The notes below the pieces were generated by a model. The model ran no database searches. It was given only the letters and a program-made list of their open reading frames with translations, and had not been told where the DNA came from. This document shows positions 15,462 through 27,759 of a DNA stretch of 56,074 nucleotides, one piece after another. The stretch lies in contig JAKFGP010000065.1 in NCBI GenBank assembly GCA_021502835.1, positions 1 to 56,074 of the forward strand, read 5' to 3'. This DNA comes from Streptomyces thinghirensis (GTDB lineage Bacteria > Actinomycetota > Actinomycetia > Streptomycetales > Streptomycetaceae). Within the stretch, counting starts at the first letter, position 1. The number at the start of each line of letters is the position of its first letter. The position numbers and the translations under genes are program-made.

Positions 15462-16342
15462 CTACTGCGGGCGCCGAGGGCGCCCGCCAGGTCGGTGATG
15501 TCGGCGAGCATCCGCACGGCGTCGGGTTCCCGCCCGGTGAACAGCCGGAACGCGTCCGCGGCCTGGAAGACGGCCATGCCGCCGCCGTCGAGCGTGGCGC
15601 AGCCCAGCGCGCGGGCGGTGCGCAGCAGCTCGGTCTCCAGCGGGCGGTAGACGACCTCGGCGATCCACAGCCCGGGGTGCAGCAGTTCGGCGGGCAGCGG
15701 CAGGCCGGGGTGGGCGGCCATGCCGGTGGGGGTGGCGTGCACGATGCCGTCGGCCCGGGTCAGCAGCCCGGCCAGCCGGTCCGGGGCGGCGTGGTCGGCG
15801 CGGCCGTCCCCGAAGTGGCGGTTGAGCTGGGCGGCGAGGGTGGCGGCGCGCTCGGGGCATCGCGTCGACGACGGTGACCCGCCCGGCGCCCAGGGTGAGC
15901 GTGGCGTGGGCGACGGCCGCGCCCGCGCCACCGGCGCCGAACTGCACGATCCGCTCCAGCGGCGCGTCGGGCAGCCCGCGAGCGAAGGAGGCGGCGAAGC
16001 CGGTGACGTCGGTGTTGTGTCCGGTGGCGCGGCCGGTGTCGTCGAGGACGACGGTGTTGACCGCGCCGAGCGCCTCAGGCCTGCGGGGCGAGGGCGTCCA
16101 GGTGCTCGATGACGAGCTGCTTGCAGGGGTGGGTGATGTTCAGCCCGTCGAAGCCCAGGTCCCGGGCCGCGCGCAGCAGGTCGCCCACCGCCTCAGGGCC
16201 GGACACCGAGGGTGTCGATGTCGATCAGCCGGTACAGGTAGCGCAGACCCTGCCGGCCGGCCTCCCGCTCGTGCAGTGCCGGGCTGAGCGACGGGCCGAT
16301 GCCGGAGCCGATCAGCCCGACGAGATACGAGTCCTTGGCCAC
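15462..16342 (-). CDS. Shikimate/quinate 5-dehydrogenase family protein
   Basis: NAD(P)-dependent dehydrogenase acting on shikimate or quinate. Recognised by YLVGLIGSGIGPSLSPALHE at the N-terminus, FDGLNITHPCKQLVIEHLD (substrate lysine in the HPCK loop), GAVNTVVLDD, the Rossmann motif FGAGGAGAAVAHATLTLGA and GGGMAVFQAADAFRLFTG near the end. The start is GTG 16342 behind a strong AGGAGG. The end is probably TAG 15462-15464 after a small shift, since the straight frame runs into the next gene. The presence of a QsuB-like gene downstream and an MFS symporter nearby suggests a catabolic (QsuD-like) rather than biosynthetic AroE. Confidence 0.88.
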
Positions 16343-20109: not shown

Positions 20110-20770
20110 TCAGGACGACACATGCGCCACCGCGTCCAGGTGGGGCAGATGGTGGTCGAGCCGTTCCCGCTTGGTGCGCAGATAGGTGATGTTGCTCTCG
20201 CACGGCGGTATCAGCAGCGGCACCTGCTCGGTGACCTCGATGCCGTGGCGCACCAACGCCTCGCGCTTGCGCGGGTTGTTGGACATCAGGCGCACGGACC
20301 GCACCCCGAGGTCGTCGAGGATGCGGGCGGCGACGCCGTAGTCGCGGGCGTCCACGGGCAGGCCGAGGGCGAGGTTCGCCTCCACCGTGTCAAGGCCCTC
20401 CGCCTGCAACGCCATCGCGCGCAGCTTGGCGAGCAGTCCGATGCCGCGTCCTCGTGGCCGCGCAGGTAGACCACGACGCCGCTGCCCGCGGCGGCCACCT
20501 CCCGTAGTGCGCAGGCGAGTTGGGCGCCGCACTCGCAGTGCTGGGAGCCGAACGCGTCACCCGTGAGGCACTCCGAGTGCAGCCGGGTCAGCACGCCGTC
20601 GGCGCCCGGATCGCCGTGGACCAGTGCCACTTGCTCGTCACCGCGCTCGTGGTCGTAATAGCCGAATGCCCGGAATTCGCCGTCACGGTGGGCAGAGGCG
20701 TCACCACGACCCGCTCCACATCCGTGCGCTGCGCTGCTTTCTTGCCGAGTACACCAATTTTTTCTGTCAT
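20110..20770 (-). CDS. GTP cyclohydrolase II homologue, FAPy-forming variant
   Basis: RibA-family zinc enzyme acting on GTP. The zinc-binding block is [27 protein letters not shown] and GIGLLAK follow; one indel lies here. Other motifs are [20 protein letters not shown] and [16 protein letters not shown]. The active-site helix reads AKLRAMALQ (codon at 20413-20415). By eye this places Met where E. coli RibA has Tyr105 (KIRAYALQ). In S. coelicolor SCO6655 the same Tyr-to-Met change is described as giving FAPy, the formylated pyrimidine, instead of the fully hydrolysed product. The start ATG 20770 gives [14 protein letters not shown]. It is divergent from a creatininase-family gene and probably feeds it. 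It is not expected to serve riboflavin synthesis. Confidence 0.9.
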
Positions 20771-20833
20771 GATTCTCGCGTTCCTCAACAGACTGCTCAA
20801 AGTTTCTCGACCGAGACGAAAGGCCGTGCGGGA

Positions 20834-21593
20834 ATGGATGTTTCACTGGTGCCGGCGGACACGACCGAAGACGTGCGCAGGCGGGGCTCCGGGGTTCCGC
20901 GACAGGTGGCGGTGCTGCCGGTCGGAAGCTTCGAACAGCACGGCCCGCACCTGCCGCTGGCGACCGACACGCTCGTCGCGTGCGCCGTCGCCCGGGAGAT
21001 CGCCGCCGCGTACCCGGTGCACCTGCTCCCACCGGTGACGATCGGCTGCTCCCACGAGCACGCGGACTGGCCGGGGGACCGTCAGCATCTCCTCGGTGAC
21101 CCTTCACGCGGTGGTACGGGACATAGCCGACTCGCTGCGCCGCTCGGGCGTCGACGCCCTGGGTGGTGGTCAACGGCACGGCGGGAACTACGTACTGGGC
21201 AACGTCGTCCAGGAGTCCTCCGCACGCGGCGAACGGATGGCGCTGTTCCCGGCCGCGGAGGACTGGGAGGCGGCTCGGGAGCGGGCGAGGGTGGCCACTT
21301 CGCTGCTCACCGACATGCACGCGGGGGAAATCGAGACCTCCATTCTTCTGCACACGCACCCCGAATACGTCCGGCCCGGTTACGAGGCCGCCGATTTCGT
21401 CGCGGACGACCGGCGTCATCTGCTCTCCCTCGGTATGTCCGCCTATACCGATTCCGGTGTCATCGGGCGTCCCTCACTGGGTTCGGCGGAAAAGGGGAAG
21501 GAACTGCTGGCGAGCCTCGCGGATTCCTTCGGAGCGTGTTTCTCGCTGCTGACGTCGGAGACGGTCACCGCGCCGGGCGGTGAGCGCGGGTAG
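20834..21593 (+). CDS. Creatininase-family amidohydrolase, possible FAPy deformylase
   Basis: Begins at ATG 20834 ([14 protein letters not shown]). The metal-site signature is complete: [18 protein letters not shown] (E, H and D ligands), [16 protein letters not shown] and [10 protein letters not shown] (Glu ligand). Creatininase-family enzymes hydrolyse amides; archaeal ArfB of this family removes the formyl group of FAPy made by ArfA. Sitting divergent to a FAPy-forming cyclohydrolase, this gene is a good candidate for the same step. Frame changes occur near 21080 and 21165. Alternatives are a creatinine- or mycofactocin-type amidohydrolase. The stop is TAG 21591-21593, converging on the membrane-protein gene. 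Confidence 0.87.
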
Positions 21594-22636
21594 TGCCCGT
21601 CGGGCGCGCGGTGCGGGGCGGAACGGCCGCGCAGCCCCTCGCACCAGCGGACCACGAGAACGGCGACCCCGGGCAGGCTCGCCACGAGGCTGAGCACCCC
21701 GTAGACCACGGCCACGCCCAGCCCGGTGCCCGCGCCCAGCCCGGCCGCCCCGAACGCCCAGGCGGTGACGCCCTCCCGGGGGCCCCAGCCGCCGACGTTC
21801 AGCGGCAGTCCCATGGCGAGCAGCGCCAGCACGGCCAGCGGCGTCAGTACGGCGACGGAGGCGCCGCTGCCGGCCACCCGGGCGGCGAGGACGAACATCG
21901 CGAGGTGCCCGGCCAGGACGACGACGGACGACACGGCGACCCCCGGCAGGTTCCGCCGGGACAGCAGCCCTTCGCGCGCTTCGCGGAGCGTCGCCCGCAG
22001 GGCCCCGGCCGCTGCCCGCCCCTTGCGGGAGGGGGCCCGGTTCATGCGCAGGGCGAGGACGACGGCGAGCGCGCCGAGCACGGCCATTCCCACGAGCGGT
22101 GCGAGGTGCCGGGTCCCGGCCCGCACGGGTGACTCCATCGTGAGCAGCACGACGACTCCGACGCCGATCAGCGCCAGTTGGCCGGCGGCCCGTTCGAGGA
22201 CGACGGCCCGCACGCCCCGCCCCAGGTCGCCGGCGCTCCGTCCGTGCCGAACCGCGCGGTGCACGTCGCCGAGTACGCCGCCGGGGAGGGCGGCGTTGAG
22301 GAACAGCGCGCGGTAGTAGTCGGCGACGGCCGGGCCGAGGGGCAGCCGGATGCGCAGGCCGCGGGCCACCAGGGCCCAGCGCCAGGCGCTGAACACCGTG
22401 GTGACCAGTCCGATCCCGAGTGCCGCCAGCAGCGTGGGCGCGTCGATGCGGCGCAGCCCTCCCAGGAACACACCGGTCCCCATCCGCCACAGGAGTACGG
22501 CGAGGATGGCGACGCCGGCGACGGTGCCTAGGTGGGTGCGCAGGGCGCGGCGGCGGGGGTGGTCGCCGACGGGCGCCGCGTCCCGGCGTACCGCCGCCGG
22601 CAGGGGACGCCGTCCCCGCCTGTACCGTCGGTGCAC
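21443..22636 (-). CDS. Multi-pass membrane protein, LPG-synthase transmembrane (UPF0104) family
   Basis: Intact frame from GTG 22636, immediately after the methyltransferase stop. About eight hydrophobic segments are visible ([94 protein letters not shown]). [20 protein letters not shown] and [20 protein letters not shown] are family signatures. The soluble transferase domain of MprF is absent. It could be a flippase or scaffold for a lipid-linked product of this cluster. The family ends near 21594; the last 50 residues of the open frame overlap the convergent creatininase gene and may come from a missed stop (a TGA in another frame is at 21565). Confidence 0.85.
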
Positions 22637-24160
22637 TCACGAAGCCCCGCCCGTCGGCCGGCACAGGGCCAGCAGGTCGGTGTGGTGGACGACGACGCGC
22701 AACTCCCCGCGGCGCAGGCAGCGAGGCGCTCGTCCAGGTACCGGCCGGCCGGTTCGCGCAGTTCCGGGCGCTGTTCGACGGCCGCTCGGACCCAGCCCCG
22801 TAGCCACTGGGCGGGTGAGCACGGCCTCGTCGGGGCCCAGCCGCCAGGGGCTGGGGTGCGCCCGCACGGTGGCGCCGTGCTCGGCGAAGGCCTCCGCCGC
22901 GACGGTCACGGCGTCCGGGCCGAGCATGCCGGTACGCCGCTGGTGGTCGTTGAACGCGTCGGCGATCTCGGCGTCCAGGGGGTGGGCGGGGTGAGGTCCA
23001 CGCGCCCGGCGACGGACAGGGTCAACAGGGCCGGACAGCCGGCCGAGGCGCAGGCGGCGGCGAGCGTGCCGACCTCCTCGGCGGTGAGGACGTCGAGCAG
23101 CGCGGACGCCGTCACCAGCGCGGCGCCGGCCAGCGCGTCCGGGGTGAGGCGGCCGAGGTCGCCGCGCCGAGTCTCGACCGTGACGCGGCTGCCGTCGGCG
23201 GCCGAACGCGGGGGCGGCGACGGCGGCGAAGTGCAGGAGGTAGGGATCGTGGTCGTGCAGCACCCAGTGCTGGGCGCCGTCGAGCAGCGGGGCGAGCCAG
23301 CGTCCCATCGAGCCGGTGCCGCAGCCCACGTCGTGCACGACCAGCCCGCCCGCCCGCCGCGGCAGGTTGGCGAGACGGATCCGCAGCGGGTCGAGCAACT
23401 CGTGCGCCCGCGCGGCGCCATCGGCGGGCTCACGCAGCCGTAGCCACTCGGGGGCGTACGCGGAGGTTCACCGGGGCGCCCCGGCTCCTCGCGCAGGCGG
23501 AGGGTGGCCCGCTCGGCGGAGGGCTGCGCGGGGTGGTCGGTGAGGGGATCGGCGGAGGGCTGCTCGGGGCGGTCGGTGAGCGGCTCGGCGGACTGCCGAC
23601 CGGGGCCGTCGGCCAGCGGATCGGCGGACGACCGCCCGGGGCCGTCGGCCAGCGACTCAGCGGGAGGGCCGACCGGAGATGGTCGGCGAGCGGCTCGGCG
23701 GAGGGGCTGCCCGAGACGGTCGGCGAGCGACTCAGCGGGAGGACTGCCCGGGGCCGTCGGCCAGCGACTAGCGGACGACCGCCCGAGACGGTCGGCCAGC
23801 GGATCGGCGGACGACCGCCCGGGTCCGTCGGCGAGCGGATCGGCGGACGGCCGACCGAGACGGTCGGCGAGCGACTCGGCGGAGGGCCGCCCCGGGGCCG
23901 TCGGCCAGCGGATCGGCGGACGACCGCCCGAGACAGTCGGCGAGCGGCTCGGCGGACGACCGCCCAAAAGCCGTCGGCCAGCGACTCGGTCGAGGGCCGC
24001 CCAAAGCCGTCGGCCAGTGACTCGGTCGAGGGCCGCCCGGGGCGTTCGGTGGGCGGATCGGTCGGGCCCGCGTCCGGGATCACGCCGTTCGCCGAGTCGG
24101 GGGCGTGCTGGGGGCCGGGCTGGGACGGGATCGCCCGCGTGGCCGGTGCCGTGGTCTTCC

Positions 24161-24164
<4 letters not shown>
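22637..24164 (-). CDS. SAM-dependent methyltransferase with repeat-rich N-terminal extension
   Basis: The C-terminal 250 residues are a class I methyltransferase: motif I is VVHDVGCGTGSMGRWLAPLL, then WVLHDHDPYLLHFAAVAAP and LVTASALLDVLTAEEVGTLA. The end is VVVHHTDLLALCRPTGGAS. The first 230 residues are a Pro/Ser/Ala/Asp-rich linker made of about fifteen 12-residue repeats (36 bp), such as SADPLADGPGRS and PAESLADRLGQP. Starts at ATG 24164, which overlaps the glycosyltransferase stop in an ATGA. Frame changes are near 22800, 22990, 23205, 23440, 23760 and in the repeat. Substrate unknown. Context suggests N-, C- or O-methylation of a pterin- or pyrimidine-derived product. Confidence 0.8.
23514..24060 (-). 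repeat. 36-bp tandem repeat within the methyltransferase gene
   Basis: A TCGGCGGA core recurs every 36 bases (for example ending at 23520, 23556, 23592, 23628, 23664) for about 15 degenerate units. Twelve codons per unit keep the frame. Two protein variants recur: an S-A-D-P-L-A-D-G-P-G-R type and a P-A-E-S-L-A-D-R-L-G-Q type. It encodes a flexible acidic/proline-rich linker. Indels inside the repeat could be biological copy-number changes or assembly errors. Confidence 0.85.
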
Positions 24165-25840
<1,676 letters not shown>

Positions 25841-25895: not shown

Positions 25896-26877
25896 TCAGG
25901 CGCCGGGGTACCGGATCCGGTGGCACAGCGCGGGGATGTCGCCGGAGGCCAGTCGCGCCAGCACGTCCGGCAGTTCGGTGAACGCGGACTCGCCGGTGAC
26001 GAGCGCGTCGAGCGCCGGGTCGGCGAGCAGATCGAGGGCGAGGGCGAGCCGGTCGGCGTAGGTGCGGGTGGCGCCGCGCGCCGGGGGAGACGGTGCCGAC
26101 CTGGCTGCTGCGCAGGGTCAGGCGCCGCGAGTGGAAGGCCTCGCCGAGCGGGAGGGCGACGCGCCGGTCGCCGTACCAGCTCAGTTCGAGGACCGTCCCC
26201 TCGGGCCGCAGCAGCTCCAGTGACCGGGCGAGGCCCGCCTCCGTTGCACTGGCGTGGACGACGAGGTCGAGGCCGCCGAGGGCGTCGGCGGGGGACGCGA
26301 AGCCGATCCCGAGGGCCTCGGCGACCTCGGACCGGGCCGGGTCGGCGTCGACCAACTGGACGCGGACGCCGGGGAAGCGGGCCAGCAGGGCGGCCACCGA
26401 GCAGCCGACCATGCCGCCGCCGACCACGGCGATCCGGTCGCCGACCAGGGGCGCCGCGTCCCACAGGGCGTTGACGGCGGTCTCGACGGTGCCGGCGAGC
26501 ACGGCCCGCTCGGCGGGGACCTCCGGGGGCACCGGGGTGACGGCGGCGGCCGGGACGACGTACCGGGTCTGGTGCGGGTACAGGCAGAAGACGGTGCGCC
26601 CGAGGACGGCGTCCGGACCCCTCCTCCACCACACCGACGTTGAGGTAGCCGTACTCACCGGCCCCGGGAAGTCGCCCTCCTGGAACGGCGCGCGCATGGC
26701 CGCGTACTGGTTCTCGGGCACCCGGCCGCCGAAGACGAGCGTCTCCGTGCCCCGGCTCACGCCGCTGAAGAGCGTACGCACGAGCACCTCGCCGGCCGCG
26801 GGCGCGGGCAGCTCGACGTCGCGGATCGCACCCCGGCCTGGCGATTCGAGCCAGAACGCACGTGCCATGCCTGTCAT
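25896..26877 (-). CDS. Zinc-type medium-chain dehydrogenase, NAD(P)-dependent
   Basis: MDR superfamily alcohol dehydrogenase-like protein. N-terminal GroES domain: [20 protein letters not shown] and [20 protein letters not shown]. Rossmann domain: [20 protein letters not shown], then [20 protein letters not shown]. The C-terminal end is [20 protein letters not shown]. Cysteines that usually bind structural zinc are not seen, as in shorter members of the family. Starts at ATG 26877 behind AGGAGG. Frame changes are near 26080 and 26640. It is co-oriented with PTPS after a 115-base gap. A role in oxidising or reducing a side chain of the pathway product is inferred. Confidence 0.88.
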
Positions 26878-26986: not shown

Positions 26987-27759
26987 GTGGCCCTGAACAA
27001 CACGTACGACGCGTACGACGCGAGGCCCGTTCAGCAGGAGACCGCGGTGGGGGCGGGCGCGCAGATCCTGCTCCTGTCGCTGCTCGGCACGGCGATCGGG
27101 ATGGGCACGGCGGGCTGGCTGACCGGCCTCGCGTTCGCGTTCGCGACCTGGGCGGTGCTCTCCGGGCCCTGCACCGCTCCCGGCTGCCGTCGTTCGGCCC
27201 GGCCAACCGGGTCACCCTCGGCCGGGCCACCCTGGTCGGCGGGGTCACGGCCCTGGTCGCGGACTCCTTCCGCAGCGCGCCGCCGGTCTCCCTGCTGGTC
27301 GGCCTGACCGCCGTGGCCCTGATCCTGGACGGCGTGGACGGCAGGGTCGCCCGCCGCACCGGCACGTCGTCGCAGCTGGGCGCCCGCTTCGACATGGAGG
27401 TCGACGCGTTCCTGATCCTGGTGCTCAGCGTGTACGTCGCGATGGACCAGGGCCCGTGGGTCCTGCTGATCGGCGGCATGCGCTACGTGTTCGTCGCCGC
27501 GGCCCGGGCGTGGCCGTGGCTGACCGCCCCGCTGCCGCCGAGCACGGCCCGCAAGACGGTGGCCGCGCTGCAGGGCGTGTTGCTGCTGCTGGCGGGCGCG
27601 GAGCTGCTGCCGCCCGCGGTCAACACCGGGGTGGTCCTGCTGGCGCTGGGGCTGCTGGGGTGGTCCTTCGGCCGGGACGTGCTGTGGCTGTGGCGGACGT
27701 CGCGGACGCGGAGCGCCGCCCCGGCGGCCGAGGCGATGCGGGAACTCGTCGCTCAGTGA
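26987..27759 (+). CDS. CDP-alcohol phosphatidyltransferase family membrane protein
   Basis: Integral membrane enzyme that attaches an alcohol headgroup to a CDP-linked substrate. The hallmark D-x2-DG-x2-AR-x8-G-x3-D-x3-D is complete: LDGVDGRVARRTGTSSQLGA followed by RFDMEVD. Hydrophobic segments before (ILLLSLLGTAIGMG) and after (VLLIGGMRYVFVAAARAW, GVVLLALGLLGWSF) are consistent with six helices. Starts at GTG 26987 behind GGAGGG. One frame change is near 27168. It is divergent from the dehydrogenase. The headgroup alcohol is not determinable; with the glycosyltransferase and UPF0104 protein it hints at a lipid-linked product. Confidence 0.9.

Follow-up and report, generated by a model that had tools for sequence, protein, structure and literature searches.

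A locus in which a GTP cyclohydrolase II (GCHII) gene without the codon for the reaction-completing tyrosine stands head to head with a gene of the creatininase family raises the question of whether the second enzyme finishes a reaction that the first one leaves half done, and of which pathway such a reaction would serve. The locus is contained in the DNA analysed here, a stretch of 56,074 nucleotides from Streptomyces thinghirensis (referred to as the window). A sequence-only reading of it had proposed a two-step route through FAPy (2-amino-5-formylamino-6-ribosylamino-4(3H)-pyrimidinone 5'-phosphate), by which either the archaeal path would be rebuilt in bacteria or FAPy itself would enter a specialised product.

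The locus in the window and its intact counterpart

The window has a high GC content (68-78% in 2-kb steps), and frame breaks divide many of its genes; the GCHII gene runs across three frames and the creatininase-family hydrolase gene across more than one. The nearest genome compared, G001, has 43% of the window's sampled 31-letter words and matches the region in five blastn pieces of 95-98% identity. Between window positions 15978 and 22641, 23 frame-changing indels separate the two in 6648 aligned bases, so the broken frames look like sequence error rather than gene decay; the G001 copies are intact. The window sequence thus appears unpolished, which makes any "broken gene" in it suspect. 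Because of the split frames, the intact G001 copies (locus L003) were used for protein analysis. The features of the locus are as follows.

20110..20770, minus strand: GTP cyclohydrolase II (GCHII) variant, SCO6655 type; 220 aa in G001; PF00925 220 bits (G001 copy); frame broken in the window
20413..20415, minus strand: Met codon (ATG) at the position of Tyr105 of E. coli RibA, placed by alignment
20771..20833, no strand: gap of 63 bases between the divergent genes, with ATG start codons on both sides
20834..21593, plus strand: creatininase-family hydrolase, proposed FAPy deformylase; 252 aa in G001; PF02633 218.6 bits (G001 copy); frame broken in the window
21446..22603, minus strand: membrane protein of the LPG_synthase_TM (flippase-like) family; PF03706 105 bits (G001 copy)
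22664..23503, minus strand: class I SAM methyltransferase (Methyltransf_25 type), based on a 41% tblastn match to the relative at locus L063 and on Pfam of relatives; the G001 copy reads N
24164..25262, minus strand: GT4-type glycosyltransferase; PF00534 93 bits (G001 copy); frame broken in the window
25382..25804, minus strand: PTPS homologue, orthologous to SCO6650 (3D7J), which the G001 copy matches in the PDB at E 1.6e-81; frame open in the window
25899..26877, minus strand: medium-chain (zinc-type) dehydrogenase homologue; matches below cut-off to PF00107 (28 bits) and to the BchC model (44 bits); in all 64 regions described below
27101..27756, plus strand: CDP-alcohol phosphatidyltransferase homologue; PF01066 53.7 bits (G001 copy); in many of the 64 regions

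The locus is assigned to the SCO6650-SCO6655 type. The same genes are annotated on a plasmid of S. fungicidicus, in the order GCHII (with Met at the switch position), creatininase family protein, methyltransferase, glycosyltransferase, PTPS-type protein, zinc-binding dehydrogenase and CDP-alcohol phosphatidyltransferase. The PTPS homologues are unusual in that the third zinc His of the motif, which we take to lie in L-H-G-H of PTPS/QueD, is replaced by Ala in 63 of 64 cluster proteins and by Val in the other one; this agrees with SCO6650 reportedly being without zinc. Between the glycosyltransferase and methyltransferase genes the window carries a tandem array of about 15 copies of a 36-base unit (23511-24061), and G001 reads N in the neighbouring stretch.

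The cyclohydrolase and its switch residue

The GCHII of G001 matches positions 20113-20770 of the window in pieces (tblastn). The sequence-only reading had described a divergent pair and a KLRAMALQ peptide with Met in place of Tyr105, and both descriptions are accurate: the GCHII gene (minus strand) and the creatininase-family gene (plus strand) stand head to head with the 63 bases between them, and the peptide is encoded at 20404-20427 (minus strand) with its ATG at 20413-20415. In the alignment with E. coli RibA (2BZ0), which that reading had recommended as a check, Met 120 of the G001 copy falls on the Tyr of KIRAYALQ.

Apart from this position the protein resembles canonical RibA/RibBA in its family, its zinc cysteines and its other checked residues, and it scores above the cut-off of TIGR00505 (213.2 bits against 205.85; PF00925 220 bits). 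The zinc ligands Cys54, Cys65 and Cys67 and four further positions, whose roles and numbering we assume, are unchanged in all 39 non-Tyr members of the first sample (see below), in the 13 Tyr enzymes from the same type of cluster and in 14 other GCHII domains from the sampled genomes. The latter have Tyr at the switch position in all 14 cases. The cluster enzyme differs from the canonical ones by the absence of Tyr105 (replaced by Met in the window and by Met, Leu, His or Gln across the clade) and by being encoded as a separate gene within a specialised cluster. Moreover, G001 carries a second, RibBA-like GCHII elsewhere in its genome, and this copy has Tyr.

SCO6655 of Streptomyces coelicolor was reported in 2006 to make FAPy, and a Met-to-Tyr change is said to restore the full reaction. 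The window GCHII is taken as the SCO6655 orthologue on the grounds of its position in the locus and of Met at residue 120, presumably the switch residue. The same reaction is extrapolated to the Leu, His and Gln enzymes, given that the reported reaction concerns Met only.

Distribution of the hydrolase in the first sample

A phylum-wide search with the pattern K-x-R-A-M-A-L-Q was tried and abandoned: it found 5 of 296 genomes, all from the genus of the window, and it misses variants of the KLQAMKLQ type as well as all Leu, His and Gln forms. As this pattern was too strict, searches with the PTPS protein and a residue-blind alignment were used instead. Of 393 genomes of the class, 63 were positive, and 64 regions of up to 20 kb around the PTPS gene were read (genome G303 has two; a few end at contig ends, L021 at 4 kb). 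The dehydrogenase, PTPS and glycosyltransferase were matched in all 64 regions. GCHII was found in 52, without Tyr at the switch position in 39 (Met 26, Leu 7, His 4, Gln 2) and with it in 13.

A creatininase gene was present in each of the 39 non-Tyr loci, 38 times inside the fetched piece and once (L078, genome G617) about 16 kb from the GCHII gene in the same locus. Neither the 13 Tyr regions nor the 12 in which GCHII was not found contained it. As the naive chance of the 39/13 split (1.6e-12) takes no account of common descent, this figure is not counted as evidence. When the whole genomes behind the 13 Tyr regions were searched, one (G636) had a strong hydrolase relative (56%, on another contig), six had weak relatives and six had none at E 1e-10. 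A search at E 1e-15 of the genomes behind nine of the 12 GCHII-less regions gave two weak relatives and seven genomes with none. Three GCHII-less clusters (L066, L079 and L081), from genomes with a single GCHII, have no cluster-type hydrolase either and come from the family to which many non-Tyr clusters also belong; they read as cases of joint loss of GCHII and hydrolase.

If the hydrolase finishes the reaction of the Tyr-less GCHII, it is expected where Tyr is missing and should be absent where Tyr is present. The proposed two-step route gains strong comparative support from the counts given above (39/39 non-Tyr loci, 0/13 Tyr regions), while its chemistry remains a prediction. We consider it quite probable that the variant GCHII stops at FAPy, that the creatininase-type enzyme deformylates this compound and that the product feeds a specialised pathway of the cluster.

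In such a mechanism the variant GCHII would open the imidazole ring of GTP, remove pyrophosphate and, being without the reaction-completing Tyr, release FAPy. The adjoining creatininase-family metallohydrolase would then take off the formyl group. The resulting 2,5-diamino-6-ribosylamino-4(3H)-pyrimidinone 5'-phosphate, the ordinary RibA product, would enter the specialised pathway of the same cluster and not riboflavin synthesis. The genes predicted to act in this pathway are those of a reductase (in some clusters), the non-canonical PTPS, the dehydrogenase, the methyltransferase, the glycosyltransferase and the flippase-like membrane protein. The gene linkage, the residue with its unchanged surroundings at the checked active-site positions, and the correlation of linkage with residue can be read directly from the loci; deformylation by the cluster hydrolase and every step downstream of it are what we infer.

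Leu, His and Gln enzymes in further genera

A second sample was collected by scanning named genomes with a pattern in which the switch residue is Leu, His or Gln; being selected for these residues, it tests one direction only. At least 80 loci were obtained, of which 12 were set aside, 11 because they had no GCHII match and one (L157) because its match was weak (113 bits). Among the matches listed, 68 were true GCHII (His 58, Leu 8, Gln 2); 67 of these 68 were actinomycete, from 12 named genera and one MAG.

A cluster-type creatininase was present in the assembly in all 67 actinomycete cases among the matches listed. At 34 of the listed loci it was contained in the retrieved DNA (pieces of 8 kb or less). 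Another thirty genomes were searched in full; 29 were actinomycetes, and all of these had a close hydrolase (E 4e-79 or better), which in 27 was on the GCHII contig, 0.1 to 27 kb away, and in 2 on another contig. The remaining four loci represent the same DNA as first-sample regions with the hydrolase (five loci overlap the first sample in all).

The arrangement of the two genes varies. They stand head to head in Streptomyces and most Amycolatopsis, share one strand with about 3 kb between them in Lentzea and Saccharothrix, and occupy opposite cluster ends, about 5 kb apart, in Actinomadura. Several non-Tyr clusters outside Streptomyces (L019, L024, L068, L073, L075, L080 and L084) contain an extra MFS exporter gene and a Methyltransf_19 gene.

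The hydrolase and its relatives

The full creatininase metal signature (E-x-H, D, H, H-x2-E) claimed for the hydrolase is indeed complete in the G001 copy, and the metal residues (those which we take to bind metal) are identical in all 39 cluster proteins compared. The protein falls below the cut-offs of the specific models of the family: 37.3 bits against 180 for ArfB (NF033501), 137.4 against 172 for MftE (TIGR03964) and 98.7 against 235 for creatininase (TIGR04448). Among the 8 PDB sequences that match it, none is named ArfB or BrbF.

Membership in the creatininase family alone proves nothing, because relatives with other surroundings exist. A strong match to the hydrolase (E 1e-35) was found in 16 of 158 genomes, in 12 of which it belongs to a non-Tyr cluster. 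The other four (G306, G309, G335 and G354) have only a subtype of 58-63% identity and no PTPS match. In all six loci examined (L093-L098) this subtype follows a conserved ORF, which in the two loci scanned codes for a TPR regulator resembling NsdA. The creatininase genes of the plasmid loci L265, L266, L269 and L270 are likewise preceded by a gene of about that size. A plasmid of S. coelicoflavus (L264, 9001-9792) carries a creatininase gene on its own, with 88.7% identity to the cluster type, and within 9 kb of it no GCHII is annotated or matched by motif. In protein searches of a large database, nearly all named entries among the best 120 per search were from Streptomyces, which made these searches little informative on diversity.

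Archaeal-type and riboflavin-directed alternatives

The archaeal ArfA/ArfB path resembles the proposed route in proceeding through FAPy in two steps, the second of which is catalysed by a creatininase-family enzyme (ArfB). ArfA is not known to be related to GCHII. The suggestion that the archaeal path has been rebuilt here is not borne out: the hydrolase reaches 37 of the 180 bits set as the ArfB cut-off, the enzyme for the first step belongs to the GCHII family, and a further GCHII, with Tyr, is encoded in G001.

A related possibility is that the pair provides a back-up entry into riboflavin synthesis, as a bacterial path similar to that of ArfA and ArfB. Its product would be the normal riboflavin precursor, and the creatininase-family enzyme BrbF serves riboflavin in Sinorhizobium, according to PMC9478397. 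We nevertheless regard this as very improbable. Another GCHII is present in G001, in 10/10 non-Tyr genomes and in 29/29 actinomycetes of the second scan, and in the three genomes in which the other copy was read (G001, G183 and G617) it has Tyr. Furthermore, the neighbours of the pair encode PTPS, dehydrogenase, methyltransferase and glycosyltransferase, and no lumazine or riboflavin synthase occurs among the annotated conserved gene groups (all but two small groups).

The reductase gene and the direction of the pathway

A RibD_C gene is present in all 13 Tyr regions, although the similarity is weak in two (L089 and L091), where the gene may be part of a riboflavin operon instead. Three of the Tyr-region copies were scanned against NCBIfam and scored best, below the cut-off, on TIGR01508, the model of the reductase of 2,5-diamino-6-ribosylamino-4(3H)-pyrimidinone 5'-phosphate. 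The same gene (46-55% identity) occurs in eight Leu/His/Gln loci among the matches listed, seven of the His type and one of the Gln type, from Saccharopolyspora, Crossiella, Saccharothrix, three Lentzea, Umezawaea and Pseudonocardia. A weaker homologue (28-30%) was detected in five Met regions, in two of them as Pfam RibD_C; the two Met-region homologues scanned score higher on the general RibD C-terminal model than on TIGR01508. In 33 of the 38 non-Tyr regions with the hydrolase in the piece no RibD_C gene was found, which is a point against a fixed pathway. Four regions (L022, L030, L082 and L083) contain the reductase gene and no GCHII gene in the part read; their precursor is perhaps supplied from elsewhere in the genome.

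These data bear on the proposal that FAPy, with the formyl group kept, is itself the building block, and that the creatininase-type enzyme works at a later stage, on an amide or lactam of the product. Such a scheme would fit the release of FAPy reported for SCO6655, the 33 regions of 38 in which a reductase of the deformylated compound is missing, and the existence of enzymes for other amides in the family (the creatininase and MftE models match). However, the same core genes occur with a Tyr GCHII, which is expected to yield the deformylated compound, the cluster hydrolase of the first sample is confined to loci where Tyr is missing, and eight of the listed Leu/His/Gln loci carry the reductase. 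The use of FAPy itself, the second option of the sequence-only reading, is therefore less likely, because the core cluster elsewhere employs a Tyr GCHII and a reductase-like gene for the deformylated pyrimidine; we judge it unlikely. The simplest reading would be that all versions of the cluster need the deformylated compound, obtained either from a Tyr GCHII or from the pair. To judge from the genes for a glycosyltransferase, a methyltransferase and a flippase-like protein, the end product may be a modified molecule of the pyrimidine or pteridine type that is perhaps exported.

Evolution of the pair

In the phylogenetic tree the non-Tyr GCHII form one clade (support 97/89). Eleven of the 13 Tyr cluster enzymes are placed on a different branch, together with a third GCHII of genome G183 (presumably SCO2687-like), which represents a second type of paralogue; the other two have long branches and their place is unsure. 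Since 11 of the 13 are on another branch, the same cluster appears to use either a canonical GCHII or a non-Tyr GCHII with the hydrolase.

The single origin of the variant is the main limit of the pairing argument. It leaves room for the view that the role of the hydrolase is unrelated and that the gene merely travels with the cluster by common descent, so that the correlation reflects one ancestral event. The monophyly of the non-Tyr enzymes and the solitary and differently placed relatives of the hydrolase would agree with this. On the other hand, the linkage is kept across several gene orders and 12 named genera beside Streptomyces, the three genomes whose cluster is without GCHII are also without the hydrolase, and the switch residue of the first sample drifts among four amino acids and is never Tyr where the hydrolase is present. 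An unrelated role of the hydrolase is thus decidedly unlikely in our opinion, and a functional pairing is preferred. The association is best described as one evolutionary event followed by drift, retained linkage and probable co-losses, and not as many independent gains; the loss of Tyr and the gain of the partner may have been a single event inherited together.

We lean towards a broader scenario in which a one-enzyme reaction was split in two: a deformylase joined, Tyr was no longer needed, and by drift the position came to hold Met, Leu, His or Gln. Sister clusters would have kept the canonical GCHII for the same step. The product in many actinomycete genera would be a glycosylated, methylated compound, perhaps a pteridine, derived from 2,5-diamino-6-ribosyl(or ribityl)amino-pyrimidinone phosphate. 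The coexistence of a split and a single version within one cluster type would offer a clean case of the division of a multi-step active site.

Relation to known systems

The window locus and that of SCO6655 are of the same type (the PTPS matches SCO6650/3D7J) and share Met at residue 120. The work on SCO6655 reportedly dealt with GCHII alone. The present comparison links the residue to a creatininase partner, adds Leu, His and Gln as alternatives at the position and brings out a version of the cluster with a Tyr enzyme. It would thereby give the FAPy-releasing GCHII found in Streptomyces a partner and a reason. FAPy formation by SCO6655 is thus, by report, already known.

The same applies to a bacterial creatininase-family FAPy deformylase, BrbF of Sinorhizobium meliloti and Brucella abortus, described in PMC9478397. 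Its gene is flanked by genes for MarR and CobW; the partner that opens GTP for it is given there as not known. This activity provides the proposed reaction with a precedent within the family in bacteria. BrbF and the cluster hydrolase, whose metal site is complete, are both creatininase-family proteins; the deformylation of FAPy to the diamino compound has been shown for BrbF and is proposed for the cluster hydrolase. They differ in that BrbF serves riboflavin, whereas the partner of the cluster hydrolase is a GCHII variant in a specialised cluster, and in their neighbours (MarR and CobW genes against GCHII and membrane protein genes). The former context was seen in Shinella (L268, 2836-4944), where a creatininase gene between MarR and CobW genes encodes a protein 38% identical to the cluster hydrolase and matching the same four NCBIfam models; it is probably BrbF. 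Inspecting the switch residue of GCHII homologues may help to trace the GTP-opening partner of BrbF. Two RibA encoded on Rhizobiaceae plasmids have Tyr, which gives nothing firm on this point.

The 8-azaguanine and pseudoiodinine clusters (PMC7109123, PMC9911603) are similar in having recruited GCHII-type chemistry or a GCHII-like gene to a specialised pathway; neither "creatinin" nor "formyl" was found in the main texts of the two papers. A literature search with most subscription papers outside its scope gave, in the sources accessible to it, no title or opening lines of an abstract that report a GCHII-creatininase pairing apart from BrbF, and no paper combining creatininase, cyclohydrolase and Streptomyces. 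Within this scope, we have not found the GCHII-hydrolase coupling, its breadth or its exchange with a canonical GCHII described. A residue other than Tyr at position 105, which can be read from sequence, may serve as a predictor of a separate deformylase, and the occurrence of the PTPS gene in 63 of the 393 sampled genomes of the class points to an uncharacterised pathway.

A His-type cyclohydrolase in Abditibacteriales

The one GCHII of the second scan from outside the actinomycetes belongs to an Abditibacteriales MAG (L231, 6948-8168). It is a RibBA-like protein with His at the switch position, encoded among rib genes (by eye), and is the sole GCHII matched in this genome, which also has two distant creatininase homologues on other contigs. 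It was considered as an independent second case and set aside: from 59 genomes with a match, 30 loci were read for its phylum, and in 29 of them the GCHII domain has Tyr (L231 being the one exception among the matches listed); the Tyr and His codons are one base apart. As a lead from a single MAG, it represents a possible independent loss of Tyr.
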